From Scenedesmus sp. ARA3 (taxonomy: Eukaryota; Chlorophyta; Chlorophyceae; Sphaeropleales; Scenedesmaceae): a stretch of DNA of 64,000 nucleotides. Positions 1 through 64,000 of this stretch are shown here, piece after piece; positions within the stretch are counted from its first letter, which is position 1; each line of letters starts with the position of its first letter. The stretch is taken from positions 64,406 through 128,405 of the forward strand of contig RWJK01001032.1 in assembly GCA_004335835.1 (NCBI GenBank), in the 5' to 3' direction. Made by a program: the position numbers and the translations under genes. Under the pieces are notes generated by a model that was not told the origin of the DNA, made no database searches, and saw nothing but the letters and a program-made list of their open reading frames with translations.

Positions 1-850
1 CATGCCCACCGCCACCTCAGCAGCCAGGCACAGCCGCAGCCCGGGAGCCACATGGGCCAGCAGTTCCTTGTCACTGTCATCATCGAGCCATTCCTTGCGC
101 AGCATCTGCCGCACATCTGCACTGAACAGCTCATCTTCATCCCCTGCTGCTGCTGCCCCTGCTGCTGCTGCCTCTGCTGCTTTTGCAAGCCGCGCCTCAG
201 CTGCTGCCGCCCTTTGCAGCACAGCCCTAGACAGCTGTGCCTCCCCGCCAGGCTGCCTCCTTGCTTTCTCTACCTCCCACAGTGCTTCTGCATCTGCCTC
301 TGCATCTCTTTGTGTTTGTGCTGCTGCTGCCAGCTGCCGCAGCTCCCCTGCACAGCTGTGGATGGCTGGCACTGCTGCATGGGCGATGATCTGGCGCAGC
401 TCAGGGAGGGCCTTGAGCCGGGCCATGCTGTGCGGGCGCAGCGCTAGGCACTCCGCCTCGCGCCACTGCAGCAGCACCAGCAGCAGCAGCAGCAGCAGGA
501 GCAGCAGCAATGCAGGAAGGCTGGGTGGTGCAGGCAGAGGCCAGAGAGAGGTGACGGCTTGGGTTGAAAGTGCCGCAGGGGGTGCATCAGCGAGTATCAG
601 ACAATCCTCCCTGCTGCTGCTGCTGCTGCTGCTGCTGCCATTGCTACCACTGCTGCTGCTGCTGCTGTTACTGCTGCTGCTGCTGTTGCCACTCACCAGC
701 TCCAACGACCTGGTGGCTATTGCCTGGTCACTGTCATGAGCAGGGCCGCAATGGCGCCACTGCTGCTGCTGCTGCTGCTGCCACTCACCATCTCAAACAA
801 CCACTTGGCTGTTGCCTGGTCGCTGTCGTAGGCAGGGACGCAATGGCGCC

Positions 851-896
<46 letters not shown>

Positions 897-963
897 CTCA
901 CCATCTCAAACAACCACTTGGCTGTTGCCTGGTTGCTGTCGTAGGCAGGGACGCAATGGCGCC

Positions 964-1554: not shown

Positions 1555-2308
1555 AAATCTCACCAGATAAATGGACCTCTGAGCTGTTGCCTGGTTGCTG
1601 TCACAGTTGCTAATGCTGCTGCTGCTGCCACTGCTGCTGCTGCTGCATCTCACCAGCTCCAAAGACCTCTTGGCTGATGCCTGGTTGCTGTCATGGGCAG
1701 GGCTGATGTCATCCTTAGTTATTCCTGGCACCAGCTTGTGCAGCTGGGGGTACACGGCATTGTGCTCCCAGATGGCTCCTGCACAGCAACAGCACAGCAG
1801 GCACAGCACAGCACAACAGAAATGCTTAGATGCAAACTGCAATCTCACTGTCAACAACACAGCATGACTAACAGTACAACAGCACCAACATAACGCCCCT
1901 CGCCCCTGCGCTGCTGCTTGATCAGCCGCGGCTCTCCTATTGCTTTGATGTTGCTCAGCACTTTGCGCAGCTCCTCGTCGCATTTCCAAGTCACCACACA
2001 AGGCACAACACAGCCACCAAATTTGCACCCCTCACCTCTGCGCTGCTGCTTGATCAGCCGCGGCTCTCCTATTGCTTTGATGTTGCTCAGCACTTTGCGC
2101 AGCTCCTCGTCGCATTTCCAAGTCACCACACAAGGCACAACACAGCCACCAAATTTGCACCCCTCACCTCTGCGCTGCTGCTTGATCAGTCGCGGCTCGC
2201 CTATTGCTTTGATGTTGCTCAGCACCTTTCGCAGCTCCTCCTGCGCGTGGCGCTGCTGCGCTGGCGAGGCGTCCCCCACCAGCCGCAGCTGCAGGTACAC
2301 CGCCTTAA

Positions 2309-3414: not shown

Positions 3415-3605
3415 TCAACTGCTGATGCTAGCCTTTTTCGGCACAGTGATGCTCAGCACGCCACATGCCACCTGCGCAGTAATCCCCGCACTGTCAGCAT
3501 CGTCAGGCAGCAGCCAGCTGCGCAAAAAGCGCTGGAAGCTGCGCTCCTGCTGCTTGAATGCAGCTGGCAAATCAGCATCAGCATTGTCAGCAGCAGCAGC
3601 ACCCT

Positions 3606-3661
<56 letters not shown>

Positions 3662-3722
3662 CTGCCCGGCACACTGCCGGCTGGGCCCCTGCGCTGGCCG
3701 GAGATGGTCAACACAAGCCGAG

Positions 3723-3757
<35 letters not shown>

Positions 3758-3842
3758 GGTTCTGGTGTTGACCGCGGGTCAGCCTCCTCAGTCGAGTGGT
3801 GCTGCAGTTGCCCCTGCTGCAGCTGACTCCGGGCCGGTCCCA

Positions 3843-9260: not shown

Positions 9261-10802
9261 ATGGCAAGAAACAGCAGCAGCCCTGGCAGCTTTCCCGGCC
9301 TCATTCAGCTGCATTTGAAAGAAAACAGCATCTGCAGCAGCGATGGCACCACAGTCATCAAGAACCTGGGCCAAGGGGTGGCCCTGTCTGCGCATCCCCA
9401 CCTACCCAGCAGCACCAGCAGCAGCAGCGACCTGCATTCGTCACATCCAGCTGCACCAGGGCTGCTGCTTGACCTCAGCAGCAGCAGCAATGCAGCTGCA
9501 GAGGCATCGGTTCTTCTAGGGGAGGTCTGCGGCAGTGCTTTCCTGGCATGTGCCCGCATCAAGCTGTGTTGGATGAGCCCCTACCATTCAAGCAGCATTG
9601 CAGGGCTGCCAGGTCACATCCAGTTCATGCTGGTGCAGCTGGACGGCACTGCTGCTGCTGCTGCTGCTGGTGTCAGTGAAGGCAGCAGCAGGCAGCAGAA
9701 AATGCAGCCGCTGTATGCGACAATCCTGCCGCTGCTGCCGGATGGCTGCAAGGCTACACTGCAGCCCGCCAAGTGAGCAGCAGGGACGCGCAGAGATATA
9801 CGCCTGATGCACTGCTGTAATACACGCATTGGCACACGCATTGGTACACACATTGGTACCCGCATTGGTACACGCATTGATGCAAGAAAGTGCAGCATTG
9901 GCCCTGCCGATGCTGCCGGATGGCTGCAAGGCAACGCTGCAACCCGCCAAGTGAGCAGCAGCAATGATGCGCATTGATAGTAAGGCAATGCATTTCACGT
10001 ACCTGCAGCTGGCACTGCTGCATGTACTCCGATGCTGGTGTCAAAATGAAGTCGCCTGTGCATTCCTGCTAGCGCAAGCCTCGAGCAAGCAGTGCACTAG
10101 CGGCATAAGAGCGAGCAGCTTTTCCTTGTTGCATCTGCAATGAGGGCTGTCTGCTGCATTAGATTGCAGATCTGCCTAGATCGATGCCTTGTGTGTTGCC
10201 TTGCACGTCTGTGTCTGTCTCCTGCTCCTTGTCTGCCCATGCTGCAGGCAACAGTCAGCCTCAAAGAACGCCCTCGCGCTGCATTTTGACAGCGGTAACC
10301 CTGACTTGCGCCGCAGCAGCTGCCCTGATCGCTGCATGCTGCTGCCGTCTTTTGCATTTGTGCACCTGCCCTGCAGGCAGCAGCCAACCTCAGGCAACGC
10401 CCTGGTGATGCACTTTGACAGCGGCAACCCTGACTTGCTCCTGCTGTCTGCCCCTGCTACTGCTGCTCTGCTGCTGCTGCGTGTCTCACCACCTGCTCTC
10501 TGCAGGCAGCAGCCGGCCTCAGGCAACGCCCTCGCACTTCATTTCGACAGCGGCAACCCGGACCTGCTCCGCAACAGCTGGCAGCAGGCTGTATATATTG
10601 CAGCAGGCAGCGACCCTTTCGCGCTCGTTGATGCCTCGGTGGCAGCAGCAGCAGCCATTGCAGGTGAGCGCTGCTGCCCAGCAGTTGCCATTCTTTTATC
10701 CTGTGGAGTAGTGACAGTAGGTACTGCGTACTACATGTAATTGTAGGTTGATCGTGTGCAACGCACTCGGGGAGCAGTTGCATGCCTCAAGATCAACATC
10801 AA

Positions 10803-10897
<95 letters not shown>

Positions 10898-12638
10898 GTA
10901 TACAGGTGGTGCGCGCCCCCGCTGGGAGAAGCAAGTGCCGGACATCTGCAGCAGCCTGGTGGGTGCAGCTGTGCCGTGTACATACATGGCCCAGCAGGCA
11001 GCACCGCCACAGCAGTAGAAGATCAGCGCACACATCTAGCAGTCCTGCCCGCATGGCGGCTTATGTTTCTCCGATTTGTCAAACGTGTTTGTTGCGGCTG
11101 GCTGACCAGTTGTCAGCAGGCAGCATTCGCAGCAAACACATGTACACAGTGCACTCGACAGGCAAGACGGCTTAGTGCGTCATGCCATATCACAAATCTT
11201 CTTTGTTCCTTCTGTGTTCCTGCTGCAGGGGTGGTGCACCTGGGATGCATTTTACCACGATGTGTCAGGGTTAGGGCTGCAGCAGGGCCTGGAAGGGTTC
11301 ATGCGGAATGTGCTGTGTGATCCACTACTAAGTGAGACACTTTTATGGTCTGCTGCAGGGTTGGTGCACCTGGGATGCATTTTACCACGATGTGTCGGGG
11401 CTAGGGCTGCAGCAAGGGCTGGAGGGGTTCAGGGCGGCAGACCCTGCCCGGGTGCCCCGCTGGCTCATCATAGACGACGGCTGGCAGGTGAGTGAGGCGT
11501 GTGTAACATGTAACAAGCATGTTATGTCTGTTACTTGTGCGAGGTGGCAGACCCCGCCCTGGTGCCCCGCTGGCTCATCATAGCCGACGGCTTGCAGGTG
11601 AGGCACATGTAACATGTTATTAACATTTCGGTCCGTTATATAAACAGCGCATGGTAGCAGGTGTGTGTTACAGCTGCGATGGCTCATCATAGACGACGGC
11701 TGGCAGGGGAGGCGCATCACACTGTGAAGTGTCGTCAGTACGTTGTGAATTATGTGTTATGTAGGTCCCTTGTGTGTAACATGGCAGCAAGTATGTTACA
11801 AAGTTGCTGGTGCTCGTGATGTCAGAGCCAGAGCCACCTTACTAGGCTGCATGCCACATGACATGCGTGAAAGGCTTGTGACTTTCCCCCCGGTCAAGTT
11901 CGTTGTGAGCTTGATGCTGCTGCCTCCCGTGTTGCTTTTATGCATCCATGCAGCGCACTGGACTGGACAACGCAGCGCGGCAGCAGCAGCAGGTGCTGCA
12001 CAGCAAGCCGCCACCACAGCAGCAGCAGCAGCAGCAGCAGCAAGCCGGCAGTGGGCCGCACAGCCACCCCCTGCCAGACTCCTCGCTCGCCGGCAAAGAC
12101 AACAGCAGCAGCAGCAGCAGCAGTAGCAGCAGCAGCAGCTACCGCAGCAGTGCATGGCTGTTGAGAGGTGTGAGGAGGGTGCTGCAGGGCTGCCAGCGGC
12201 TGGTGCTGAGTGGCGTGGGGGCAGTGGCTGAGCGGCTCAATTGGTGGTGAGTCACGTTTGATTGTCTGCTGCTGCTGCTGCTGCTGCTGTTGCTGTTGAT
12301 GGATAACCACAGCTGTAGCTGAGGGGCGTGGGGGCTGTGGCTGAGCGGCTCAACTGCTGGTGAGTTGACGCCATCAACTAGTGCTGCAGCAATTGTTTTT
12401 GCAAGACAAATGGGTTGGAATTAATCAGTGCCTGGCAACCAAATCTGCAGGCAACACTCTTCTGGCATGTTGCGCACTGCGCGGTCGTTTTGCTGGAGCA
12501 AGGTCCTGCAGGAACTGACAGCCCAAGCAGCAGCAGCTGTTGCTAGACCAGCTGAAAGTGTTGCAAGGTATGGTGGGCTGAGCTGATAAGCTTCGACCGA
12601 CCAGCTGAGGACCTTGATTATAATTATGAAACACAATG

Positions 12639-12678: not shown

Positions 12679-15600
12679 ACTTTGCTGCAGGCCGCTGCTG
12701 CTGTCGGGGCTGCGCACGCCGCTGCTGTGCGGTGTGCTGACCCGCTGCCTGAAGGCCTTCAACGTAGCCACCAGCGAGCACTCCAAGCGGCTGCTGTCGC
12801 CAGAGTTCAATGCAAAGTTCAGGTGCGAACAAAGCATATCAATCCCTTTGTATAGTGCGTGGCCAGCGGCAGTTGGGGCTGTTGATTTGTTGGCATCACA
12901 AGCACAGCGTGGGCAAGATATGACTTGGGTATAGGGTACGGTGGCTTGCTCTGCGGCAGCTTTCTACACATCAGACTCAGAGCCTTCAACCTTGCCACCA
13001 GTGAGCAGTCAAAGCGGCTGCTGTCGCCAGAGTTCAACGCCAAGTTCAGGTGAGAACTTCACACGTTGTTCCCTCCTGTTGCCGCACCAGTGGGGCTCAG
13101 GGCCGATGGCGCTTGATGCTATGGCTTGATGATTAATGTGATGATGACGGTGTTCGTGTGTCTACATGCATCTTGCGTGCTGTGTCACCAGATAAGCTTG
13201 CTGAGTTGGGGCATGCGCCTCTTTGTGGAATTGTTTGTGTTTGAAGGCTTGCACTGTGCAGCAATGCACAAACACACAGTGCTGGCTGCTCTGCCGGCAA
13301 ATTGCACCTGAGGGTTAGGCTGGTAGCAGCTTACATGTCTTGTGCTGTCCCAAGCATGCCGACACCTGTGTGTTGCGCCTGCTCTTGCTGCAGCAACTTG
13401 ACTGTTGGGCCGACACTCGACACAAGCAGCACTGCTAGCGCAGCGGATGTAGCAGGCGTGATAGCAGCCGTCAAGCAGCGCTACAACCTGAAGCATGTGT
13501 ATGCATGGCATGCAATCTTGGGCTACTGGTCTGGGGTCAGTCCACTAGCTACACCAGCAGCAGCAGCTGCTGCTGCTGCCAGTGCAGCCAGTAGTGCAGC
13601 AGCTGCTGCTGCTGAAAGCAGTGCTGAGGCAGATGCAGAGGCTGCTGCAAAAGAGCTAGCAGCGGCAGCAGCAGGCATAGCAGCAGGTGACAGGGTCGTC
13701 AGCAGCAGCAGCAGCAGCAGCAGCGGCATGGCGAGCAGCATTGTGCTGCCTCGTGTCAGTGACGCAATGACAGATCTGGAGCCGCCTTGCAACTGGAGCC
13801 AACTGGTGAGCATGACAAGTTATTGAGTTGCTTTCATAACATGTAAGTATTCTCTCGCTTGTAACAGATCTTGCCATGTCAGTGACGCAATGACCGATCT
13901 GGAGCCGCCCTGCAACTTGAGCCAGCTGGTGAGTGTGAAAGGGTTCAGCAAGGGCAGCACAATGAAGCTTGAGACATTATTTGCAGCCCTTGTAGCACAC
14001 ACTGCAAGAGTTGTAGCCTGCTGCTGCTGCTGGTGCTGCTGCTGCCGCTGCCCCTGCTGCTAATTCCGCTGCTGCCAACACCATTTGCTGCCTGCATCTC
14101 CGCATTGCAGGTGCTGGCAGGCGTGGGCCTGCCGCATGATCCCGCCTCATTTTACCAGCAGCTGCACAGCTACTTAGCTTCACTGGGCATTGATGGCGTC
14201 AAGGTGGACGTGCAGGTGGGGCTGCTTCAGTTTTTTTTGTCCTTGAATGTTGCTCACCTTACTTCACCATGTTAAACATGATTTAAGTTGTTGCTTTTGG
14301 CTGCTGATTAGTTGACTGTTCCAATGACAGCACTCATTGGCTGCCATATGCTGCAGAGCCAATTGGAGCTTGTCGGCTCAGCAGCAGGCGAGCCGGGCAA
14401 ATAGATTGCCAGGTGGCTACTTCCACCCACTTGCTGCTTTTTGTGCTGCTGCACCGCTGCGTACGATCTTGCAGAACCAGCTGGAGCTTGTCGGCTCAGC
14501 AGCAGGCCAGCCCGGGGGGCAGGCCCTGGCAGCTGCTTGGCACGCACTACAGGCCTGCGGCTGTACTGCTGCTGCATCTCTGCTTTCACTCACTGGCTGT
14601 GCTGCACATATGCTCTGCTGCTCTTGCTCCCCGGCTGTGTTGCTGCATTGCTGCTTTTCAAATGGCTGTGCTGCACCACTGTTTTTGTTGCGCTGCAGAA
14701 CCAGCTGGAGCTTGTCGGCTCAGCAGCAGACCAGCCCGGCGGCCAAGCCCTGGCAGCTGCCTGGCACGCCACACTTGGTTTGTTGAACTGGCAATGCATA
14801 TGGATAAGCTACTGTGCTGCTGCATTGCTGTGTTACTCTGCTGCAGAACCAGCTAGAGCTGGTTGGTTCGGCAGCAGGCCAGCCCGGGGGCCAAGCCCTG
14901 GCAGCTGCCCAGCACTAGAGGCCTCCGGCTGTACTGCTGCATCTCTGCTTTCACTCACCGTGTGCTGCACACATGCTCAGCTGATCTGGCGCACCGGCTG
15001 TGCTGCTGCAGCCTTGCTGCTCTCCTTACAGACTAGCTGTACTGCTGCTCTGTTGCGCTGCAGAACCAGTTGGAGCTTGTCGGCTCAGCAGCAGGCCAGC
15101 CCGGGGGGCAAGCCCTGGCAGCTGCCTGGCACGCCACGCTTTGACTTGGTGACCTGAAAATGCATGCACATGATGGACAAGTTACTGTGCTGCTGCACTG
15201 CTGTGTTACTCTGCTGCAGAACCAGCTAGAGCTCGTCGGCTCAGCAGCAGGCCAGCCTGGCGGCCAAGCCTTGGCAGCAGCCTGGCACGCAGCACTGGAG
15301 GCGTCTGCTGGGCGCCACTTCCCAGGCAACCAGCTCATCAACTGCATGTGCCACAACACCAGCGTGAGCGCCAGCCAGTACAGGCAAATCATGACTTGAG
15401 TACAACAAAACAGAAGGCACAGCCTTCTGCGACTGCCACTTGCTTGCAACTGCATGTGCCACACCAATGTGAACCGCAGCCGACATCATGCGGTTTGTTA
15501 AGAAAGACAGAGCCTCCTGTGACTGCCACTTGCAATGACCAGCAGGAATCCCATAACATCCCATCTCATCCCATCCCATAACATTTTATAACAATCCCAT

Positions 15601-18600
15601 AACAGGCGTTGTGGCGGGGGTGCTCACAATTTTGGCTTGTCTTGGTGTTTGCCACCACGCAGAACCTCTACCGCATGGCTGCCACCAACCTGGCGCGTGT
15701 CAGTGTTGACTTCTACCCGTGCTTGCCAGCTGAGGTTTTGTGCTTGTTCTTGGTCTGCTGTTTTGTCAAACAACAGAACCTGTACCGCATGGCTGCCACC
15801 AACCTGGCGCGCGTGAGTGATGACTTCTACCCGCGCCTGCCAGCCAGCCATTGCGGCTGACTCAACTCTTGCTAATATCTTTCTGCTGCTTGTGGGCTGA
15901 ACCCCTGCCGGTGCACAAATCACACTGCAAGGCCACAGTGTGGGCCGTATACGTGATGACGCCAAATGCTGCTTGACAGCCAATATTATGTTCTTCACGT
16001 GTTCTTGTTTACCCGTATTCCACCACACAGAACCTGTACCGCATGGCCGCCACCAACCTGGCGCGTGTCAGTGATGACTTCCACCCGCGCCTGCCAGCTG
16101 AGGTTTTGTGCTTGTTCTTGGTCTGCTGTTTGTCAAACAACAGAACCTGTACCGCATGGCCGGCCCCAACATGGTGCGCGCGTGTGATTACTTGCTTCTT
16201 GTGACCCAACAAATGTTGCCTTAATTGCTGTCGTTCAACAACAGAATCTGTACCGCATGGCCGCCACCAACCTGGCGCGTGTCTCTGATGACTTCTACCC
16301 GCGCCTGCCAGCCAGCCACGCGCCGCACGTGGCCGTGTGCGCCTTCAACAGCCTGTTCATGGGCGTGATTGTTACGCCAGATTGGGACATGTTCCACTCG
16401 CGCCACCCAAGGTGAAAGGCTGCACAGCATACTGCTTAGGTATTGCTGTTGTGTGCAATAAAAACACAGTGTTTTCGCCTGTTCATGGGCGTGGTTGTCA
16501 CACCAGACTAGGACAGTTCCACTCGAGCCACCCGCGGTGAGATGCGAGTGGGAACAGCGTAAAGTATAGGGCTTGCTGCGCCTAACATCATGTCGCCAGT
16601 CCAGCCTATAGCAACCGTCCTGCCAATCCCGCTGACGTCCGCCGTGCTGCTGGGCCTCTTTGCCTGCTGCGCACTGTACCAAGTGTTTGCACATGCTGCA
16701 GGGTGCTGCTGCACGCCACTGCGCGCATGCTCAGCGGAGGCTCCGTGTATGTCAGTGACAAGCCGGGGGCGCATGACCCCGCACTGCACACCAAAGCAAC
16801 AACATCACTCTCCAACCGCCTGTCTTCAACACAGCAGACTTGTAAGTTTTCTGCACTCGTGCTGGCCATGCTAACCCTGCTGCACACGGCTGCCACCCCA
16901 GTTTTTTCTCCCCCGTGTTCACTTGTTTCCTGCAGGGCGCTGCTGCACGCCACTGCGCGCATGATCATGATCAGCGGAGGGCCGCGCTGATCAGCGGAGG
17001 GCCCGTGTACGTCAGTGACAAGCCGGGGGCGCATGACCCTGCACTGCACACCTAAACAACAACATCACCGACTGCCATCAACAAAAACAAACCTGCAGGT
17101 GTTCCGCACTTGAGCTGGCCATGCTAACTGTGCTGCATTCGGCTGCCACCTTCTTTTTGGTCCATGTTTATGCGTTTCCTGCAGGGCGCTGCTGCACGCC
17201 ACGGCGCGCATGATCAGCGGAGGTCCTGTATATGTCAGTGACAAGCCCGGGGCGCATGACACTGTGCTGCTGGCGCGGCTGGCGCTGCCTGGCGGGCTGC
17301 TGCTGCAGCCGCTGCTGCCCGGGAGGCCCACACGGGACTGCCTGTTTGTGGACCCCTGCAGGTGCGGCACCCTTGTTGCGGCAGTACATGGCACGCATGT
17401 GTACAAATGCTGCCTGCATGCAGCTGCTACGCTCCCTACAGAAAGCGCAGCTGCCAGCTTGGCGTTGCCGTTGCCCTGCCCTCTGTTGCTGAAGCTGCCG
17501 TGCGCCTTACGCTTGCTGGTGGCTGTGTGCTTGCAGGGACGGCGTGAGTGTGCTCAAGGTGTGGAGCAGGAACTGCTGCAACGGAGTGGTGGCAGCCTTC
17601 AACCTGCAGGTGGGCTGGCTGGCTCGACATTTGCGTGCTTCTGGATAAGAACTTCACACATGCCTCTGGTGATGTGTTGCGGCGGCTTGCACAGCACAGC
17701 TGCTGGTATTCCAGCCAAACTGTGTTGTCTAACAGGCATGTTGTGTGTGTTTCGGGATCCATCGCTAGGGCTCCTGCTTGTTCCCTCCGGTCATACGTAT
17801 GATCAACAGTCATGTCATTAACATGTCATTCTGCTGTTGTTGCTGTTTTTCCCGCCGCCAGGGCTCCTGCTGGTCCCGCTCCAAGCTCAAGTTTGTCACG
17901 CATGACAGCTCACCAGCAGCGCTCAGCACGCTCATTGCACCAGCTGATGTGGAGGGCCTGCTGCACTGCCTGCCACACAACTGCAGCAGCAGCAGCAGCA
18001 TTTGCAACAGTGATCCAGCAGGACAGCCTGCAGAACCCACCGCAGCAGCAGCAGCAGCAGGATGCGTCTTGCATCACTCTGGGGAGTTTGTGCTGTATCT
18101 GGACAGCAGCAAAGCACTGACAGTGATTGAGGATGACGGCATTGCACTGGGCAGGCAGGGCCAGGGTGAGGATGCAGAGGGGCTGTCTGTGCAGCTTGCT
18201 GCTGCTGGCAGTGATGTAGTGACTGTAGCTCCACTTCTGGAGCTAAAGGGCAGCAGCAGCAGCAGCAGCAGCAGCGGCAGCAGTGATGTGAAGTTTGCAG
18301 TGATAGGGCTGACAAACATGCTGAACCCCGGCGGTGCAGTGAAGAGTGTATCGATTGACAGCAGCAGCAGCAGCAGCAGCAGTAGGGAGGCAGGCAGTGA
18401 CGGCGGCAGCAGCCAACACAGCAGCGGCAGCTGGGTGGTGGCAGATGCAGCAGCAGATAGCACAGCAGCAGCGGCAGCTGGTGACGGCAATGGAAGCACT
18501 GAGGCCGCTGCTGCTGCCGCCGCGCCAGCAGCAGCAGCAGCAGGATGCAGTGCAGCAGTGCGTGTATCTTTTGTGGGGTGTGGTCAGCTGCTGCTGCATG

Positions 18601-24242: not shown

Positions 24243-27200
24243 TTGCAGGAAGGCTTGCAGGAAAGCTGCTGTGACCATGACCACAGCTCAGGCCATCACC
24301 ATCATCATCATGACAGCCACTCCCACAGTGCAGCAGAACCAGCAGCAGCAGACGCAGACAAGTTGACCGAGCAGCAGGCGAGCCTGCTGGTCAAGTATAA
24401 CGCTTTTGCGGATGACTATGAGGACCTGGCAGCAGCTGCTGTGCGGGGCGCAGCGATGCCGCACAGCCATGTGGGACTGTGGCCGCAGTTTGCGCTGTTC
24501 AACCACTCCTGCCTGCCTAACAGCGTGCACTACCTGGTGGGGCATGCTATGGTGGTGCGCGCTGTGGAGGATGTAGCGGCAGGTGAGTCTGCACCATTAT
24601 AATGATAACTTATCACTAGCATTACATGCTTGTCATGATCATATCGTATTGTTGTGTTGTGTACAGCCTGCCTACCAGTGTGCACTGCCGTGTGGGGTAT
24701 GCCATGGTGGTGCGCGCTGTGGAGGATGTAGCCGCAGGTGGGTCTGCATATGTAATCACTGTTATGGTTACTGTTATGAGTGCTTGTATTGAACTAAGTG
24801 TTACTACAGTTCTGGTTGTCATTGTTGATGTTGTTTGCATGTGTGGCCTGCCTAACAGTCTGCACTACTTGGTGGGGCATGCTATGGTGGTGTGTGCTGT
24901 GGAGGACGTGGCGGCAGGTCAGTCTGCATCTATCAACATTGTTTTCCTTTCCACTGATGTCATCATGTTGTATTGTTATGTTCAACCACTCCTGCCTGCC
25001 GAATAGTGTGCACTACTTGGTGGGGCATGCTATGGTGGTACGGGCCGTGGAGGATGTGGCCGCAGGTTGGTCTGCATCTATTACTTATTGTTGTTCTTTC
25101 CACTAATTTCACCAAGTTGTATCGATATGTTCAACCACTCCTGCCTGCCTAACAGTGTGCACTACTTGGTGGGGCATGCCATGGTGGTGCGCGCTGTGGA
25201 GGACGTGGCCGCAGGTGAGTCTGCACTGCTTTTCATTGTCGTGCCTGTATTTATAGTAGTGCTGATGATAATGTGCGTTATAGCTGTATGGTGGTACGCG
25301 CTGTGGAGGATGTCGCAGCAGGTAAGTCTGCATTTGTTGTCACTGTTGTAGTCACTGTTATGAGTGCTTGTATTGTACCAACTGTTACTACGATTATTGT
25401 TGTCATTGTTGATGTTGTTTGCATGTGTGGCCTGCCCAACAGTGTGCGCTACCTGGTGGGGCATGCTATTATGGGGCGCACTGTGGAGATAAATAGATAG
25501 AGGGGTTGCACGATGTGTTCATGCAGCATACGCCACGACAGACACCTGGTAATCTAGGAAGCTGCAAGCAGCTTAGCTAGGGCGCTGTGGAGGACGTGGC
25601 CGCAGGTGAGCAGGCTTTGTGTGTTTGGTGCTATTGATCAACGTGCTGGTGCCCTCTGCTGTGTTTGATCTGGCACGCGCTTTCAGCAGCGGCGCACGTA
25701 CATGGCATGCATACATGGCATTCACAGGCGGCATGTAAGGCTGCCGGCAACCGCTGCATCACATTAGCAGTGCACTTGGCACGACACCTTTCTGCTTTGT
25801 CCCATATGCTGCTGGCTGCGCTCCGGTAGCGCAGGCGAGGAGCTGACAGTCAGCTACCTAGCGCGCTCACCATCAGCTACCTAGCCCGCGAGTTTCAAAG
25901 CCTGTGCTGCTTGCTGTGTTGTGCTGCAGGCGAAGAGCTCACAGTCAGCTACCTAGGGCGCGAGGAGTTTGCACCTGCAAGGGCGTGCCAGGCGGTGCTG
26001 CAGGAGCGCTACGGCTTCGCCTGTGCCTGCATCACATTGGCGGCCCACACATGCTGCCACCATCTGTCTGTCTTACGTCACACCCTCTGTCGCGGCCTTT
26101 CTTGCTGCGCTGCAGGCAAAGAAGCTCAGCATCAGCTACCTAGCACGCAAGGAGTTCCAAGTATTAGAAGCCTGCGCTGCTTATGTGTTGTGCTGCAGGC
26201 GAGGAGCTGACAGTCAGCTACCTGGGCCGCGAGGAGTTTGCGCCTGCGGGGGCGCGCCAGGCAGTGCTGCAGGAGCGCTACGGCTTCGCCTGCGGCTGTG
26301 CACGCTGCCAGCTGGAAAGCCAGGCGCCTCGGCAGCTGCAGCAGCAACTGCTGGACACCTACAGGCAAGTCATGCAGGTGCGCGGCTGCTGCAAAGGGAA
26401 AGTTTTCATGTTACAACATGTAAGCAGGGCTGGGTTAGCTGCTGTGTCGTGTGAATGGGTGTGGTGGTTGACACGAGGGTGAGGCGTGCCGCAGTCATGC
26501 TGATGTTGCTGCGCCTGTCAGCAGGACAAATTGGCTGCTGCAAATGTGGTTCCGCAGAAACAGGGGCCAATCAGCCAGTTCATTGCTGCCAGCTGGAAAG
26601 CCAGGCGCCGCGGCAGCTGCAGCAGCAGCTGCTGGACACATATTGGCAGGTCATGCAGGTGCGCGGCGTTGCTGCTGTGTGGTGTGAATGGATGCGGCAG
26701 TGGCCAAGGGTGAGGCGTGCAGCAACTGTGCTGGTGTTGGTGTTTGTTTGCACGTGCCAGCAGCTGGAGAATTCATCAAGCTGGCCATGGCCTGTGTCAT
26801 TGCGCCATGCCACCTACCATTGCGCAACCTTGCACTGCTGTGCCGCTGTCTGATACTGCAACAATCATGTGTGTATTTCCCCTTGCAGGACCTCAAGCCG
26901 CGCTTCTTAGAAGCAGTGGAGCACCAAGACCAGTCAAACCTCGCAGCAGTACAGGGGCAGCTACACACCCTGCAGCACTTCCTGCAACCACCACAGGGCG
27001 CAAATTGCTGTACTACTGCGCTGAAACTGTTCTGCTACCTGACACTGCAACAAACATGTCTGCATCCTCCCTCTCTTGCAGGACCTGAAGCCGCGCTTCT
27101 TGGAAGCAGTGGAGCACCAAGACCAGTCAAACCTCGCAGCAGTGCAGGCGCAGCTCCAAACACTGGAGCACTTCCTCAGCGCAGCACTACAGCAGCACCG

Positions 27201-46900: not shown

Positions 46901-49900
46901 CTTGTTCTGCTGCCTGACCTCTGCCAGCTTCTTTGCGAGCACCTGCAGCAGCAAGCAGCGCAACAAGTAGGCAAGATATCAGGGAACTCAAGATACAGCC
47001 AGCAGATAGGTCAGGGAAGCACCACAACTGTGTTTTTAATGTTCGAACTTTGAAAAGTACATGTGTGCAGCACACGAAAAGCATGCAGGCGTGGTTGAAA
47101 AGCCACCTTACATACTGCAGGAGAGGCTCCAGCAAACGCAGTTAAGCAGAGACTGGTACAGCAGCGCACCTGCTGGATCACGCCCACGTTGGGGTGCTGA
47201 TCATCCTCCCCCACAGCACCAGCCAGCTCCGCCTCCCTGAACTCCACCAGGCCCATGTCCTCTGTGAACAGCCTGCAGCTGTAGGCAATGCTGATGGCAG
47301 TCTCCACCTTGTCGCCAGTGAGCACCCAGACCTTGATGCCTGCTGCGGCCAGCGCCTGCAGGCACTCCGGCACGCCGTCCTGCGACAGCAAACCAGCAGA
47401 AGCAACGGCAGCAGGTTGACATGCAAGCCTCGAACCTGAAATCTGCAAGCACAGGGGCGCGTCATGGCTAGGCTACCCACACACAAGGGCACCAAACGCA
47501 TGGCAGGTAATGTGTTCAACGGCCTAAACAGCATGCTAGCTGTGAGCCTACCTGCAGCTTGTCTTCCACTGCAGTAGCTCCCGCTAGGTGCAGGCCCCGC
47601 TCAATGCGCTCCTGCTCTGCTGCCATGCGGCCTTCCCTGTCTACCATGGACACCTGAGCAGCAGCAGCAGCAGCAAAACCAGCAACAGCCAAAAGAACCT
47701 CATCTTAGGCTGTGCCCGGACGCAGCAGCTCCACAAATAGTTGCGCTGTCAGCTTGTTCAGACACATCGCACTACTGCTGTGAAGAGCAGAGGTTACGGG
47801 CAAGCGGTGGCGCAGGGCTCACTATCCATCATGCAGTGTTTCTGCCGCCATGCAGCGTTTCTGTGGCCACGCCTGCCCACCTGTGCAGCAGAGTAATCAG
47901 CCTCCCACTGCTCATACTCCTCCCTGCTCAGCTCGCGCTGGGCCACCAGCAGCGTGCGGTAGCCAGCATGCGCCATCTCGTCCTGCAGCAGCAGCGGCGG
48001 CACCAGCAGCAGCACTTAGCGGACATGGCGGTACAAGATTTCTGTGCTAGTGACTGTTGCATCGCCACTTATGAAAGGCATGCGCCTGCTCCATGTTTGT
48101 GTGCTGCTACCTGCCCAAGAGAAACCGATTGAACACTGTACGAACTGTGAACAACACCAACTTACCAGGTGCTGCTTGACTGTCTCCACGCCCGGCTCTC
48201 CAGCTGCCAGCCGCGACAGGATGATGCTGTCCGCGCCCTTGCAGAACAGCATCAGCCTGTCCTGCGGCGTGCGCACAATGATGCTCATGCGCTTGCGGTC
48301 GCTGTTGAACTCCAGTGTGGCCAGGATGTCGTAGGTGTGCAGCGCGCCGCGGATGTCTACCTTGACCTGTTCGGTGGTGCGGCTCACCAGGCGGTGGCCC
48401 AGGTAGGCTGCGCCCTGTACCAGCGCCTCCTCATCTGGAGATGAGGCCTGCAGAGTTGAGTGGGCAGGCAGCACGTGTGTACAGTTTAATGTGCAGTTAC
48501 AAGATCAGGCGGTGGCCCAGGTAGTCTGCGCCCTGCACCAGCGCCTCCTCGTCTGGCGATGAAGCCTGCAGCATTGAGTAAGCGTGGTGGAAGCGGTGAC
48601 ATGTGAACAGATCAGATACGCAAATAACAAAATGAGGCGGCGCCCAGGTAAGCAGCGTCCTGCACCAGCGCCTCCTCATCTGGAGATGAGACCTGCAGCA
48701 TTGAGTGAGCATGGGTGGAAGTGGTGACAGGTGAACAGGTCAAATACGCAAATTACGAAATGAGGCGACAGCTCAGGTAAGCAGCGCCCTGCCCCAGAGC
48801 CTCCTCGTCTGGAGTTGAGACCTGCAAAAAGAGGGCAGCATACGGCTGTGACTGCTCAACTAGGAACAGAAAGAACACAATATCCACACTAGAACTAGCG
48901 CGGTCAAGCGCAAGGACTAGAGCATACATGAAGGCAGCCCATTGCAGCCTTGCAAAACTGTGATCTGCTGAACACAAAGACCACTCCATCAGCAACACAC
49001 GGTATGCAACAGGCGTGGATTTGCGTCAGATCTTGACGCACCTGGTACAACAGAGAGCCATCAGGGTTGACCGAAGGCACCACTGTGTTGCACACTGCCA
49101 GGTTTGTGAGGAAGTCCAGCAGCGCTGGCTGTGGCTGCCGGTTCTTGTCCGACTTGTCCTGCCTGAAGCACAGAGCCTTCTGCACGCCGTCATCCAATGC
49201 TATCGAGTGTGGCGTGTTGGCTGGCATGCCCGCTAGGCGCTTGTCTTCGCTGGCGTGCTGCCCGTACAGCACACCACCCACACTGGCCCATACAAAGCCC
49301 ATCACGTTCTGCGTGAGGGTGCCTGTCTTATCACTGAGCACGTACTGCACCTGCAGGGGGGACAGACGGCAGCACATCCCAGCTCAAGTTCAAGAGAGCA
49401 TTGCGTGACCAACGCTCAGCTATGCTATGCATACCGTGTGAAGCCGGTTACGCTGTCCCACACTACATGCGCTCTGCATCATGTAGCTGCACATACATAC
49501 ATATAATTAGCCGCAAAGCCCAGTCCACAGCGGGCCAGCACGCACCTGGCCAAGCTCCTCATTGAGCGTGGTGGTGCGGCACACAAAAGGTGTGTCAGTG
49601 TCCCTGTGGTACATTTGCCTGTCGCTGTTCAGCAGCAGCGTGCACTGGAACACCTTGACCACCTCCAGCGACACGTACAAGCTGATGGGGATCATGTTGC
49701 TCAGCAGGATCAGGAAGCGCAGGAACTGCAGCGCAGGACAGGCGCAGGCAGCAAGCAGCACACAGAAGGGAGAGTCAGGCGCACGGTGCTTTGTTGGCTG
49801 CAGCAGCTGAACTCAGGCACACCTAAAATCGCATGCCAGCAGCTGCCTGTGGCGTGCATTGCCACTTGCATAGATAGATATGCTCCGTACTCACCGAGAT

Positions 49901-53724: not shown

Positions 53725-56697
53725 TTAGATCAGCGGCAGCGCTGCCGTGCCCAGGCGCTCCGCCAGCGAGACTTGGCTGCGCACCAGGTGTGCAAAGTAG
53801 CTGAGCAGCAGGTCGTCCTGCACGCCCTCGTTGAACATGCGCTCAAAGGCAGCAGGCTCCAGGTGCGGCACCACCGCCAGCGTGTCTGCCAGGTAGCGCC
53901 CAACAGATGCGTCGCCCTCGCGGCGGCCAGCCTACGTATGCAAAAGAGTATACTTCAGTTGATGAGGAGTTCCATGTTAACATTGTGTAAGTGTGTCAGG
54001 AAGGTGAGTGTGAACTGTGATTGTGTTTAAACAAGCCAGTCGAGCAGTGCAATTGAAATGGCTGTTTCAAGGACAAGCAGCAGCGTGCGTGTGAAGGAGT
54101 GAACCCAGGACCATCCATCCGCGCTTGCAGCCCCCAGGATCTGCCCGCAAGCAACGCACTGCATTCACACCAATTCAACCTACACATCTGTGCCAGCACT
54201 GCCAGCGACTCGCTGCTTGTGACATCAGTGCAGTCCACATGCAGCCGCAAGGACACAAAGCTAGCACACAACGCTCACCACCACGTCCTCCACGTAGGCC
54301 TGCGCCTTGCCCAGCAGCGCGGTGAGCTGCGTGATGCTGGTGGCACACAAGCAGTCACAACGCATGCAACACCTATGTGCACATGGAACCACACAGTGCA
54401 GCAGCCAGCACACCGACCACCACGTCCTCTGCGCAGCCTTGACTGTTGTCCAGCAGCACACAACGCACACGGATGCAGCACCGACACTAAAGTGAGCCAC
54501 ACAAGCCAACTACAGATGCGGTAAAAGATTGTAACTCACCACCACGTCCTCCACGTAGGCCTGTGCTTTGCCCAGCAGCGCGGTGAGCCGCGTGATGCTG
54601 GTGGCCAGCGTCTCCTGCTCGGCAGTGGGCTTGCCCTTCTCGGGATCGCCAGACACCAGCAGGCTCACTGCGGCAGCAGCAGCAGCAGGACAGTTCGGCA
54701 CAGCATATGCAAACAGCGGCAGGCACATACTGCTAGGTGGCTGGCTCCCAGCACGCCACGCTCGACAGCCGCACTGCACGATGTTGCGACGCTGCCTCTG
54801 CTGTCCACGAGCTGACTGGACTTGCCGATAGAAGATGGGCATGTTGCAACTGTTGTTTGCTCTCAGCTCACCTCCCACGCGCTCCACATTGCTGTATGCC
54901 ACATCACAAGGCACCTCCACAAACTCCATGCCCAGCGGCTTGTCGCCCAGCGCCAACAAAACTGCCATGCCCAACGCCCGCTGGCACTTGCTGCCCTGCT
55001 CAACACCATCAAAACCTGCTGCCAGCACCTTGCATGAAGGCTATCATGGCGCACTCTTCAAGGATTCCTGATCTGTAGATTTGCAAAACAGCTTAGTCTC
55101 CTCAGCTCACCTCCCACGCGCTCCACATCGCCGTATGCCACGTCACATGGCACCTCCACAAACTCCATGCCCAGCGGCTTGTCGCCCAGCGCCAGCCCGC
55201 GGCTCACAAACGTGCTGCAGGGCAGCTTGTCCTGCTGCAGGCTGGTGTCCAGGCGCAGGTGCACCTGCAGCAGCAGCAAGAGCAGCAGCAGCAGCAGCAG
55301 CAGCAGGGTGCGGTTAGGGGATGCGGTGGGATGTCAGCTGTGTGGTGCTCTGTCGACCACGCCTGCTGCCTGCGGCGTTCACACTATGTGCTTTGAAGAC
55401 GCTGCTACTGTGGTAGTAGAGCCATGCGGTTTTTCATAAGAGCTTTGTCGAGCTGGCTGTTGCAGAGCCGGGCGGCACACCACCAGCCAGCTGTGTGCGC
55501 ATGTTGCCATGCAGGCCGACTCATTCCGGGACACAGAATGCAATGCCCGGTGCTAGAATGGTGATGCCAGCTGGCATCTAGCAGGGCTGCTGTTGCTGCA
55601 ACATCCCGCGGCTGTGTTGCCGCCACAGTCACAGCTGCAGCAGCTGCTACACCGTGCTCTCAAACTTCCAAACATGCTACTCACTGGCCCATATGATGCT
55701 GTGACCTCCTTGGAGTAGTGCTCCTGTATGAGGGCATCGCTGCTGTTGAGGCCGCCGCCTGTTGTTGAGAACCTGCAGCAAGCAGTGCAGGACACAGCAG
55801 TGTACAACAATCGCATGGTAAACCTGCAAGTAAGTAGCTGCATCTGTGTCATGCATCCCTGGGCCGAGTTGCTGCTGCACTTGGAGATGATTGCAAGCTG
55901 CTGTGGTGGTGTGAATGGCTGGCAGCGGCCCAAGTCAGGGGCCAACTGCATGTTCCCTCAACGTGTAACTGCAGGAATGCTGCTGCGTGTTCTACACTAG
56001 CGCGCGCTGGCTGGACATATGTACTGCTACCATGTCAACACATCAGGGCAGAGACAGCATGAGACTGATGCATAATCCCGCTGGCCTGCAGAGCACTGCC
56101 GCCACCACCCACATGCAGACTGGGAGCGTTGAAGCGAGACAAGGTTACCCGGTGCACGCTGCTGCTGATCATTGCTTGCTGCTGCCAGCTGCTGCTGCTA
56201 GCTGCACTCGTAACTGCTGTACTGCCTGGACTGCCCATGCACAGGTCATCCAGTACTCACCAGCCCACAATGATTTGTGATGGTGCTACCCGCTGGTGCA
56301 GCTCGTGCATAGTCTTGTGGTGTACTATGTCCACAGCTACCTGCGGTTACAACACACAGCAGAGGCCCACAGAATGCTGGATGTGTTAGACGCCGTCTGC
56401 CGCCGCATGCTGTTCAAACGCTGCTGACTGGCTGGTGCGCTGCTGCATGCAGCAGAGCCTGCCCTGGCTGCTGATGGCATAGCTGCTGACCTGATCTGCG
56501 CTCTCAGTGTGTGGCACCACGTAGCAGCGACTGACAGTCACGACGCCCTCTGTTGCTGTGCCCAGCAGGGTGCCAATGACACGGTCCTGCTTGTCGTTGC
56601 GCCTGATGTATGCATCACAAATCTGAAGAAGCACTACTGGGTGAACTTTGACTGTGATGTTGGCCCCAGTCAGGGGCAGCAGCAACGAGGCAACCAT
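53725..56697 (-). CDS. EIF3F: Eukaryotic translation initiation factor 3 subunit F (MPN domain)
   Basis: eIF3f is an MPN-fold subunit of the eIF3 complex. Six exons join in phase: 56697-56491, 56340-56261, 55772-55706, 55264-55111, 54667-54540 and 53931-53725, giving 280 aa, close to plant eIF3f. Exon 1 reads VKVHPVVLLQICDAYIRRND then DRVIGTLLGTATEGVVTV, the MPN start. Exon 2 gives HQRVAPSQIIVGW, exon 3 FSTTGGGLNSSDALIQEHYS, exon 4 LALGDKPLGMEFVEVPCDVA, exon 5 LATSITRLTALLGKAQAYVE and exon 6 DDLLLSYFAHLVRSQVSLAE ending TAALPLI-stop. The JAMM zinc ligands are not seen as a complete H-x-H-x(7)-S-x(2)-D set, in keeping with a non-catalytic MPN. A longer start (ATG 56841) is open but unlikely. 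It shares a short upstream region with the divergent Brr2 gene. Confidence 0.93.
54270..55200 (-). repeat. Duplicated exon ends in eIF3f
   Basis: The exon 5 end (TALLGKAQAYVEDVV with donor) is at 54540-54600, with a copy at about 54272-54345 and a decayed one at about 54410-54440. The exon 4 end (GDKPLGMEFVEVPCDVAY to GG|GTGAGC) is at 55111-55200, with a copy at about 54870-54955 reading NVERVGG instead of DVERVGG. Confidence 0.9.
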
Positions 56698-60100: not shown

Positions 60101-63100
60101 CAACCGCAGCGAGGCAGGCGAGGATGGCAGGCTCAGGGTGCAGGAGATTGATGCGTACTGCCTGCAACGCATTGCTTTGCGCACTTCGGATCGGATGCGC
60201 TATCATGCTGCTGTGTGCTGCTGCAGGCGAGGATGGCGGGCTCAAGGTATCGGAGATCAATGCTGGCTGCAGCGCATTGCTTTGACGGAAATCTGCTGCA
60301 CTTTTGTGCTGCTGTGTGCTGCTGCAGGCGATGATGACCGGCTCAAGGTGCAGCAGATTCATGTGTACTGGCTGCAGTCTCATTGCTGTCTTCTTCGCGC
60401 GCTTTAGATCTGGTGCACTTTCATGCTGCTGTGTGCTGCTGCAGGCGATGATGGGGGCCTCAAGGTGCAGGAAATTGACGCGTACTGGCTGCAGCGCCGC
60501 ATCAGCACCAGCCTGGGCGGCATGGAGGCGGCAGCAGCGCAGCGCCTGGCGCAGGAGGTGTTCGAGGCCCTGCAGGTGAGATGATTAAAGTATCACAGGG
60601 AAGGCAGGCTGATGAACACATGTTTTGCTGATCAAATGCGTGTTGGGCGCGCTGCTGGTGTAGTGTTCTGCCTTTTGCAGCAGCTGATGTGATGGGCACA
60701 AGCGCTGTAGCTTGGCGGGTGTGTTGGCGACGTTGCTGTGGTGTGGATTACTGGCTGGCTTTCTTTGCGCGGCGCACAAATTCGTCTGCCAGAAGCGCGT
60801 GGTGCTTGTTGTGCCACTGACGTTGTCGACTGCCTCCATCCTTCACGCAGGGCGAGGACGCGTCTGCTGTTGAGACGCGCGTGGTGCAGCTGCTGGGCCT
60901 GGACCATTTCCTTCGGCCAAGGAGCTATTGCACCCACCCACCTTGCAAAATATTGCTGTGACATCGTGCACCATCCTTCACTGCTGCCCTCTGCGCAGGG
61001 CGAGGGTGTGGGTGCTTCTGACATGCGCGCGGCGCCTGTCGTACCGCCCCCATCACTGGCGGCCTCACTGTTGTTATGTGATCTGTCTGCAGGGCGAGGA
61101 CGCGTCTGCTGTTGAGACGCGCGTGGTGCAGCTGCTGGGCCTGGACCACTTCGACCTGGCCAAGGAGCTGCTGCGCAACAGGCTGAAGATCGTGTGGGTG
61201 TCCAAGCTGCGGCAGGCGCAGGACGAGGCAGAGGTAAGAGGGGCAGATGCCTGCATGGCATGTGTGGCAACAATTGTGTTGTGGTTGCTCAGCAGTTGCT
61301 GCGAAACTGGCACAGAGCTGCGCTTGGTCCAGCAGCGTGCCTTTGTGGTACCTTGTGCTGCAGGCAGCAGCAGCAGCAACAGGCGCCAGTGCTGCGCTGT
61401 GCTGTGCTGTGTGTTCCTGTGCTGTTGATGAGCGCCCACTGCTGCTGTTGTTCAATACCGCTGCTTTGCTGCTGTGCTGCTGCTATGTTCTGCTGCTGCT
61501 GCTGCTGCTGCCCACCAGACTGCTGCCGTTGAGGATCAGATGCGCCAGGACCCAGCAGCAGCTGCCATCCTGGCTGAGCTGCACGCCACACGCACCAGCG
61601 CCCGCGACAGGTGCGCCGGCATGCCTGCTTTGCTTTCATAGCGTTGTGCGTCTGTTTGACTTATTTGTTGGAGCAAAACAGATGTTGAGTGCAGTGCAGG
61701 GACCAGTGCCATGCTTCTTTGGCATGCAAGTCTCACACCATGCACTGCATGTATTGCGCCGTCAGGAACGTTGGTCCTTCTATCTAAAACCTTCAGCCTG
61801 CTATACTGCATAACCCACCCTGCAGGCAAACAGCCATGGAGCGCAGCATTCGTGAAGAGGCGCGCCGCCTGCGCCAGGGTGATGGAGCAGCAGCAGCAGG
61901 CGATGAAGCAGGTGCAGCAGCTGGAGATGAGGGCAGGGCGCGGGGCAGTGCTGCAGCAGCTGCTGCGGGCGCTGCTGCCGGGCGCTCTGTGATTGACTTG
62001 GATGGGCTGGTGTTTGGCCAGGGTGGGCACTTCATGAGCAACAAGGGCTGCACACTGCCCCCAGGCTCCTACAGGTGAGGCGGAGCTTGTTGTGCTGTTC
62101 TTTTTGTTGCAATACAACTCAAAGTGCATGTCTTCACCTTATTTGTGTGTGTTTACATCTTATTCATGGGTGTGCCACTGACTTCAATACCTGATAGATG
62201 TTTAGTATTGTTGGGCCAGCATGGGTGCGCTTGTCACAGGCAGCTGTCGACACACCATTTGAATAGTGTTACATGACTGTTATTATGGTATCATCGTCCT
62301 TTTGCGTGCAGGACCACCAAGAAGGGCTACGAGGAGGTGCACGTGCCCGCGCTCAAGCCCAAGCCGTATGCAGACGGAGAGAAGCTGGTGGCCATTGGGG
62401 AGCTGCCGGAGTGGGCGCAGCCGGCCTTTGGAGGCATGCAGAGCCTCAACAGGGTGCAGAGCCGCGTGTGCGACACGGCGCTGTACAGCAGCGAGAACAT
62501 GCTGGTCTGCGCGCCCACAGGTGCGCCGGTGGTGGCAGTTTGAAGGGTGTTTGCAGAGTTTAAGGTTGTTTTATCTGTCGCAATAGTGCAGAGCCGCGTG
62601 TGCGACGCGGCGCTGTGCAGCAGCGATAATATGCTGATCTGTGCGCCCACAGGTGCGCCGGCGGCGGCAGTCTCAAGGGGTATTTGCAGAGTTCAAGGTT
62701 GTTTTTATCTGTCGCAATAGTGCGAAGCCGCGTGTGCGACACCGCGCTGTACAGCAGCCAGAACACGCTTGCGCCAACAGGTGCGGCTTACTCAGGGTTC
62801 CAGCGCGTTGGTTCCAGGGACACGTTTTACAGCCGGTGTGGTTCTTGTGCTTATGACGCTGCAATGGTGCTGCATTGTATTCATTTTTCACATGATGTAG
62901 GTGCCTTGTGCTCAGGTGCCGGCAACACCAACGTGGCCATGTTGTGCATCCTGCAAATGCAGTTCAGGCATCCGGTATTTCAATTAGCATCGACGTCTTC
63001 TTGCTTATCTGCCGTTGTGTCATACGCTCAATCTATACAGGTGCTGGCAAGTTCAACGTGGCCATGCTGTGCATCCTGCATGAGCTGGGGGGCTGCACAG

Positions 63101-64000
63101 ACACCTGGCCTGTAGCAACAGCGCTTCTTGAAACTATTGCTTCACTTCTGCTGCAATCACCCACACGCAGGCGCCGGCAAGACCAACGTGGCCATGCTGT
63201 GCATCCTGCATGAGCTGGGGCTGCAGAGGCACCTGGCTTGTAGCAACTTTATCAAAACAACATGTTGTGCTGCTGTTGCACTGATCCCTTTTGTTGCAGG
63301 TGCCGGCAAGACCAACGTGGCTATGCTGTGCATCCTGCACGAACTGGGGCTGCACCGCCGTGCTGACGGCACCTTCGACATGAGCGCCTTCAAGGTGGTG
63401 TATGTGGCGCCGATGAAGGCGCTGGTGGCTGAGATGGTGGGCAACTTCACGAAGCGCCTGGGCGAGGCGTACGGCCTGCAAGTGCGCGAGCTGACGGGTG
63501 AGGGCAGCAGCTTGTTGGATTCTGTTGTGCTGTGTTGTCTGCTTGCAATGTGTGAATGCGCAGCCTGCAAATCTATTTGGCTTGGACAATGGGCTGGTGC
63601 ATATTTGGTTCTGTTAGACGCGTTTGGTGGTGTATGTGGCGCCAATGAAGGCGCTGGTGGCTGAGATGGTCGGCCACTTCACAAAGAGATGAGGGGAGGC
63701 TTATGGGCTGCAAGTGCGCGAGCTGACGGGTGAGCGCAGCAGCTTGTTTGTGGCTTTGTGTTTGTCTGTGTTGTTTGCTACAATGTGTGAATGCGCAGCC
63801 GGCAAACGTGTTTGCCTGGTGCATATTTGGTTTTGTCAGGGGCTGTTGGTTGTGTATGTGGCGCCGATGAAGGCGCTGGTGGCTGAGATGGTCAGCAACT
63901 TCACGAAGAGATTAGGGGAGGCTTATGGGCTGCAAGTGCGCGAGCTGACGGGTGGGTGGAAAGGCCTGCGGCTGCTTGTTTTGCTGCAATTGTGTGCTGT
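57105..64000 (+). CDS. BRR2: Brr2/SNRNP200-like U5 snRNP helicase (N-terminal part, continues past window)
   Basis: Brr2 is the Ski2-like DExH helicase that unwinds U4/U6 to activate the spliceosome. Exon 1 (57105-57170) reads [20 protein letters not shown] then RA|GTGAGT, joined in phase at 57946 to [20 protein letters not shown] and EPETLAGR, the conserved Brr2 N-terminus. Later exons: [40 protein letters not shown], an acidic Asp/Glu stretch, [100 protein letters not shown], then the first RecA domain: [22 protein letters not shown] (Walker A, 63300) and [20 protein letters not shown] (motif Ia, about 63396). The rest of the helicase cassettes lies beyond the window. Most visible exons have duplicated edges. 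Confidence 0.93.
57820..60580 (+). repeat. Duplicated exon edges in the N-terminal part of Brr2
   Basis: Copies of the exon 2 start ([12 protein letters not shown]) at 57830 before the genuine one at 57946; of [10 protein letters not shown] / DPESRCECE at 59245 and 59115; of the acidic exon start at 59604 and 59743; and of [20 protein letters not shown] segments at about 60117, 60230, 60330 and 60448, the last being the complete exon. All are acceptor-side copies with a CAG boundary. Confidence 0.88.
62437..63955 (+). repeat. Duplicated Brr2 helicase exons ([11 protein letters not shown]-loop, motif Ia)
   Basis: [19 protein letters not shown] ends at 62520, with copies at about 62585-62655 and 62718-62782. 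The P-loop exon starts at 62915, 63041, 63171 and 63300, encoding [24 protein letters not shown] and GAGKTNVA. The motif Ia exon [14 protein letters not shown] occurs at about 63396, 63630 (with an internal TGA after FTKR) and 63852 (open). Confidence 0.95.

Follow-up and report, generated by a model that had tools for sequence, protein, structure and literature searches.

Introns of the green alga Scenedesmus sp. ARA3 carry tandem arrays in which the edge of the adjoining exon is repeated together with its splice site. The window analysed here is a stretch of 64,000 nucleotides (nt) from contig RWJK01001032.1 (C725:64406-128405, in an 87.27-Mb assembly of 1567 contigs), and it contains 116 direct-repeat pairs at most 4 kb apart, each with at least 30 unmasked bases. 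Array statistics cover four mapped genes with 62 introns (Brr2, raffinose synthase, a globin-like gene and a flippase), and in these 29 introns bear 35 arrays, which together contain 67 extra copies of an exon edge. The copies pointed out in the initial annotation are therefore real. The explanation that we favour, to which we give about an even chance, is that the arrays are old tandem duplications across exon-intron borders, in which recombination with the real exon, coupled with coding selection, keeps the exon piece and its splice signal recognisable.

Shape and distribution of the arrays

Fourteen arrays were donor-side and 21 acceptor-side. The repeated unit measured 85-249 bp (101-156 bp in 26/35 arrays), with 2-7 copies per array, the real one included. 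Inner units repeat an exon piece (17-104 nt) together with a filler (51-165 nt). The match of the outermost copy beyond the splice site was short (3-13 intron bases in 29/35 arrays, 17-20 in 2 and 39-103 in 4), hence the form is exon piece plus filler, repeated, and then a final exon piece that closes the array. At donors the first copy runs on into the exon, and at acceptors the last copy does, the order that local duplication requires. The splice dinucleotide was kept in 66 of the 67 spare copies (GT in 20/21 donor copies, AG in 46/46 acceptor copies). As read off the list for the four genes, every intron-internal repeat pair was part of a border-reaching array.

The arrays were unevenly distributed. 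They occupied 18/27 introns of Brr2 and 9/12 of raffinose synthase, 1/7 of the globin-like gene and 1/16 of the flippase, and 8 of 22 other sequences, in a tally that left out loci L001-L008, were 10-kb stretches without any repeat pair (L011, L012, L021, L022, L024, L025, L027 and L032). The claim that nearly every gene is affected was thus too strong. Nor do genes divide into donor-side and acceptor-side ones, as had been proposed: Brr2 and raffinose synthase have both types, and six introns hold both. In the pair-free stretches, the number and length of predicted introns were like those elsewhere; L022 includes a further flippase by resemblance, with 21 predicted introns, none with a pair.

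Introns with an array averaged 578 bp, against 241 bp for those without. When the array was subtracted, the mean fell to 242 bp (medians 220 and 227 bp, respectively). The mean intron of Tetradesmus obliquus is given as 462 bp in the accessible part of PMC5966456.

The copies stem from the neighbouring exon and not from a dispersed family, as initially annotated, and the fillers share no common family either. When the 35 fillers were compared with 283,595 bases, the matches lay in their own array, were of low complexity, or were short and scattered. Genome-wide searches with four fillers (simple repeats skipped) returned only the filler itself in three cases, among them the fillers of both copies in the JAB/MPN-domain gene (54274.. 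and 54862..). The fourth, L009:741-878, the filler of a 98%-identical Brr2 donor array, had a single partial match, of 63 bases and 87% identity, on C1558. Because the fillers form no common family, a mobile element or introner was ruled out. No consistent source was found in local inverted or direct sequence, and no second Brr2 copy that could have served as source was present in 27 reported matches (21 of 409 first-look candidates scored).

Position of the repeat ends

To compare repeat ends with splice sites, 23 sequences (283,595 bases, partly N) were used; overlapping pairs and blocks outside 30-140 bases were left out. Of 107 non-redundant genic blocks, 57 ended 0-12 bases past a predicted splice site, against a mean of 12.8 (standard deviation (sd) 3.3, maximum 25) in 1000 random shifts, in a test that is not fully independent, since the predicted sites include spare copies labelled as exons. 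Without this contig, 18/46 block ends fell at a predicted splice site versus 5.6 expected. The other 50 of the 107 blocks had no end at a predicted splice site. Block ends therefore cluster at splice sites over random positions, as had been suggested. A geometric placement model gave 77% border contact per array, and a probability of 2.8e-5 that all 35 arrays reach a border, so that either detection or the process itself is biased to borders. Simple placement chance was ruled out by the block-end shifts and the 35/35 border contact.

The identity profile of the outermost copies showed the same edge. Identity was 0.98 at intron bases 1-2, in part since both are splice sites, and 0.28 at bases 9-12, where chance is 0.25 (25 copies, 6 of 31 terminal copies being out of register and left out). 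These data bear on the main rival explanation, namely that the exon edge and splice core are copied into the intron by a process bounded at the splice site, such as repair from an RNA template or a template switch at the exon-intron junction, and that an unrelated filler is present from birth. The abrupt loss of homology, the clustered block ends, the border contact of all 35 arrays and the existence of copies that are 94-98% identical next to random-looking flanks all speak for it. However, the same arrays keep residual homology in their flanks (see below), the block enters the intron by 39-103 bases in 4/35 arrays, and within arrays the filler is duplicated along with the exon piece. We consider splice-site-bounded copying possible but rather unlikely. 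A wider version, in which such copying is active and the copies are constrained in coding and splicing as latent edges that can replace the real one by recombination, would make the arrays a gene-wide reservoir of spare exon ends; we regard it as unlikely.

Flanks of the outermost copies

In four arrays flank homology is obvious, the block continuing 39-103 bases into the intron, and these were excluded from the identity profile and from the flank tests. In the remaining 31 arrays, the 50-base flanks of outermost copies were more alike than permuted pairs (1.53 versus -1.18, sd 0.62, p<0.0002), for donors (p=0.0002) as well as for acceptors (p=0.0064). When permutation was confined to the same gene and role, p ranged from <0.0001 to 0.0035 (n=30; p=0.0001 for the 50-base flank), and p was 0.0021 in the 16 arrays that have just one spare copy. 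These results point, if weakly, to border-crossing tandem duplication: inner copies repeat the whole unit, and the outermost flank is weakly but significantly homologous.

The youngest array, in the first gene of the window, was inspected separately. Its two fillers are identical (56/56), and so are its two spare pieces, whereas the real exon piece differs from them at four third positions, all synonymous, and at two bases at the exon-side edge. The outermost copy has GC in place of GT. Its flank aligned with a score of 13.0, against 9.6 for shuffles (sd 1.9, maximum 17), which is not significant alone. Point mutation after duplication is an unlikely source of this pattern; exchange of the real piece with an outside allele could give it.

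The initial annotation had proposed a process that recognises exon borders. The clustering of ends at splice sites stands, but machinery of this kind is not needed: unequal decay accounts better for the splice-site edge, given that outermost flanks keep residual homology and that, at other loci, young tandem repeats lie entirely within predicted introns, at L018:1852-1961 (55-bp unit, 100%) and L026:6798-7019 (27-bp unit, 100%). At L018:3188-3421, the final copy of a young intron repeat (115-bp unit, 99%) ends at a predicted acceptor. In L019, the neighbouring intron contains a full second copy of a 77-nt predicted exon plus 8-9 bases of intron at either end (3398-3491 and 3551-3644, 91% identical).

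Divergence and reticulation of the copies

Divergence was measured within arrays, with pairs below 75% register identity left out. Between copies it was 0.186 in fillers and 0.095, 0.089 and 0.229 at the first, second and third codon positions; between real piece and copy it was 0.202 in fillers and 0.082, 0.069 and 0.238 at codon positions, and between real piece and outermost copy 0.073, 0.073 and 0.212. Third positions thus track the fillers, and the rate at first and second positions is roughly half that of the fillers or lower. The summed ratio of nonsynonymous to synonymous differences (pN/pS) was 0.18 for copies compared with the real exon and 0.31 for copies compared with one another, values that overstate constraint because shared changes are counted repeatedly. 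At least 7 copies needed gaps of at least 6 columns. Only 4 stops were found in 1286 codons. The copies evolve in a coding-type manner for which pure neutrality does not account, and pure neutrality is disfavoured by the codon-position pattern. Constraint lessens near the exon-side edge: within 20 nt of it, the ratio of first- and second-position to third-position divergence was 0.5-1.0, and deeper it was 0.15-0.29, a gradient that is expected if contraction hands the splice-proximal part to the real exon.

Four-gamete conflicts were seen in 36/57 site pairs of exon pieces and in 15/149 of fillers; for the three arrays with site pairs of both kinds, the counts were 15/26 and 15/149. Filler and exon-piece divergence were uncorrelated (rho -0.07, 49 pairs). 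Age with saturated flanks is insufficient as the sole cause, since third positions of outermost copies (0.212) diverge about as much as in-array fillers (0.202), and those fillers can still be aligned. Exchange in the exon piece was for this reason added to the explanation.

Another source of coding-type divergence would be allelic: unequal exchange might have joined copies that derive from diverged haplotypes or from a hybrid partner. The youngest array, whose real piece has synonymous differences unique to itself beside an identical filler, is compatible with this. Against it, the 27 reported Brr2 matches (21/409 candidates scored) all lie on two contigs, C725, which ends within the gene, and C336:4710-11794, and are read as one split gene; furthermore, in-array fillers are alignable at equal third-position divergence, so allelic introns should be too. 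We find a haplotype origin very unlikely.

Related strains and use in mRNA

Predicted proteins of related strains were compared with the arrays. The spare Brr2 piece recurs, its amino-acid change included, in P0002 (T. obliquus OEZ85, longest contig 5.2 Mb), and a raffinose synthase spare piece in P0122 (UTEX 393) is identical to that of this genome. P0122 also repeats in full another exon, of 44 residues, in the 12691-13057 region, where this genome has a 68-nt spare piece only, which hints that the arrays may vary among strains. In P0003 (Scenedesmus sp. NREL 46B-D3), one exon body is absent and the protein resumes exactly at the exon-side edge in the five-copy Brr2 array; this suggests that the array may be shared with that strain.

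An assembly artefact through mixed haplotypes or repeats, which the initial annotation had considered, might be suspected in an 87-Mb assembly broken into 1567 contigs, one of which ends inside Brr2. It appears unlikely, since the two copies that were checked recur in the predicted proteins of OEZ85 and UTEX 393, and the copies, up to 7 per array, have diverged; we put the chance that it explains the arrays as very small.

Could the spare copies be functional, as alternative or regulatory splice sites or as edges used in some mRNAs? The preserved GT and AG, the low pN/pS and the scarcity of stops would be expected of in-frame conservation. However, unit lengths modulo 3 are split 12/11/12, of the 30 acceptor-side copies that the junction list has on the plus strand only 2 have GT directly after them, P0018 (a relative's protein, transcript-derived by name) has no insertion of at least six residues, and the pN/pS counts carry the bias described above. 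The unit lengths and P0018 together leave nothing that points to copies entering mRNA, so the suggestion of decoy or mutually exclusive exons found no support, and we hold a function of this kind to be quite unlikely.

A model for the origin and persistence of the arrays

The explanation that we favour would run as follows. Local tandem duplications of ~100-250 bp would arise in and near genes. Those inside an exon would be purged by selection unless in frame, and those across an exon-intron border would be tolerated, as the spare exon piece would leave with the spliced intron. With the first copy staying on the exon body at donors and the last at acceptors, border arrays could then persist. 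The exon pieces would recombine with each other and with the real exon, by unequal exchange or conversion; contraction would make a spare copy the real edge, and copies with a broken frame or splice signal would be selected against. The intron flanks of the outermost copy would be free of such pressure and would fade, and what remains would resemble border recognition. Old border-crossing duplication with exchange would account for both the splice-site edge and the faded flanks, as well as for the reticulation, the intact GT and AG and the coding-type divergence with its gradient. The youngest array, the flank test, third positions that diverge like fillers, intron length after subtraction and the young intronic repeats support it.

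Several observations weigh against this model. Not one purely intronic array was found in the 62 mapped introns, where ~23% would be expected if all arrays were young and randomly placed. The flank test for acceptors alone was weaker (p 0.006-0.06, the latter with 12 bases skipped). In several outermost copies the exon piece is 94-98% identical and the flank looks random, so exchange would need to be confined to 50-90 bp; the model explains neither this nor the lack of intron-internal arrays. Third-position identity, which was expected to drop near the splice site because non-homology would limit exchange tracts, was not lower there (0.78 over the final 10 bases of the exon). Exon pieces offer few informative sites, and the alignment of some copies is poor. 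That Brr2 is full of arrays and the nearby flippase nearly free of them is also left unexplained. Finally, exchange and contraction, like the age of the arrays and selection through contraction, are what we infer from the pattern and not direct observations.

Arrays and neighbouring genes of the window

The arrays located in the window are listed below. Brr2 runs beyond the window into L009, with more arrays there.

Table 1. Exon-edge arrays and copies in the 64,000-nt window
Feature	Position	Strand	Basis or remark
First gene, youngest array (132-bp unit), with three copies of an exon edge and its donor	1879..2240	-	Repeat pairs and alignment
Raffinose synthase, donor-side copy (9903-9961) of exon 9234-9772	9725..9961	+	Exon map
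Raffinose synthase, acceptor-side copies of exon 10506-10663	10242..10580	+	Exon map
Raffinose synthase, acceptor-side copy of exon 11359-11487; differences 6 synonymous, 0 nonsynonymous	11220..11431	+	
Raffinose synthase, donor-side copies of exon 11359-11487	11433..11717	+	Exon map
Raffinose synthase, donor-side copy of exon 12691-12822	12755..13057	+	Full extra copy in P0122 of UTEX 393
Raffinose synthase, five acceptor-side copies ahead of exon 15220-15363	14349..15305	+	
Raffinose synthase, four acceptor-side copies ahead of exon 16245-16411	15630..16318	+	
Raffinose synthase, donor-side and acceptor-side copies in intron 16412-17184	16351..17270	+	
SET-domain gene, array	24496..25488	+	Exon map by gene finder only
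Globin-like gene, exon 41338-41414 copied on the donor side; flanks still show homology	41017..41376	-	
Flippase, three acceptor-side copies of exon 48166-48447; sole array in 16 introns	48388..48826	-	
JAB/MPN-domain gene (eIF3f by resemblance), 54274-54344 a copy of 54535-54605, 96% identical, offset 261	54274..54605	-	
JAB/MPN-domain gene, 54862-54955 a copy of 55101-55194, 96% identical, offset 239	54862..55194	-	
Brr2, acceptor-side copy (60847-60926, 94% identical) from exon 61093-61233	60847..61169	+	
Brr2, donor-side copies of exon 62312-62520	62454..62785	+	
Brr2, acceptor-side copies of exon 63300-63497; share intron with the donor-side array 62454..62785	62904..63355	+	
Brr2, donor-side copies of exon 63300-63497	63394..63954	+	

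Pfam searches supported JAB/MPN (eIF3f-like), P-type ATPase, SET and HSP20 among the genes of the window; the globin-like protein scored slightly under the cut-off, and the first gene gave no Pfam match. The HSP20-family gene model (3415-4626) contains long poly-A and poly-Q stretches. CAG/CTG-type triplet runs are dense across the window and make up ~3% of the joined contig.

Exon maps and counting rules

Exons were predicted with a self-trained hidden Markov gene finder (last round, 304,891 bases and 567 introns), whose exon calls also include many spare copies. Spliced alignment to T. obliquus or Scenedesmus proteins and inspection by eye were therefore used to fix the maps for Brr2, raffinose synthase and the globin-like gene; the flippase map comes from the gene finder alone. 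Over the 1367 residues of the Brr2 model that were compared, 1364 agree with T. obliquus OEZ85_005838, and the globin-like protein is close to T. obliquus OEZ86_013620; the alga is accordingly T. obliquus or a species very near to it. The array list leaves out pairs below 45 bits; one such pair, of 44 bits, lies in a globin intron and another, of 43 bits, in Brr2.

Significance and comparison with known systems

The arrays offer a natural genome-wide record of border-crossing duplications, and they reveal that introns can more than double in mean length without mobile elements. If the account by old duplication and exchange is true, introns grow in this way and latent splice sites are supplied. 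The spare copies, with their intact splice signals and coding-type evolution, would also allow a clean test of whether the prospect of promotion by recombination can by itself place non-expressed sequence under purifying selection. As a practical warning for annotation, Tetradesmus gene models can contain repeated exon pieces, as in P0002 and P0122.

In plants, short tandem duplications arise from staggered breaks with fill-in. They share with the algal arrays the local direct repeats of moderate length; we know of no relation of such duplications to exons or splice sites, and further steps would be required for the algal fillers and multi-copy arrays. Mutually exclusive exons that arose by tandem duplication also place repeated exon sequence beside the original, but the algal copies are mostly partial, with one splice site each in the 35 arrays, and their unit has no frame constraint. 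In the model of intron gain by tandem exonic duplication attributed to Rogers, the duplicated segment reportedly supplies both GT and AG. The copies in the four mapped genes lie instead within existing introns and bring one splice site each; as to position, 35/35 arrays reach a border, and on the mRNA side the relative's P0018 has no insertions of at least six residues.

Among the top-ranked matches of open-access literature searches, which do not cover most subscription papers, we found no report of such genome-wide or gene-wide arrays, and the accessible parts of PMC10487979, PMC7617258, PMC7955037 and PMC5966456 make no mention of them. Introner elements likewise alter intron content genome-wide, but there one element is copied across genes, as far as the available text of PMC9860276 describes, whereas each algal repeat derives from its own exon. 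The nearest known case is the potato RdRp gene, where, according to the accessible text, a tandem duplication spans an intron-exon border, taking in the exon's start and the signals at the 3′ end of the intron, so that border-crossing tandem duplication itself is already known (PMC4974935). The algal arrays share this border-crossing form; unlike the single potato event, which created a new intron, they are many per gene and lengthen existing introns, and no new intron was seen. To our knowledge, border-crossing duplication is otherwise recorded from single cases.

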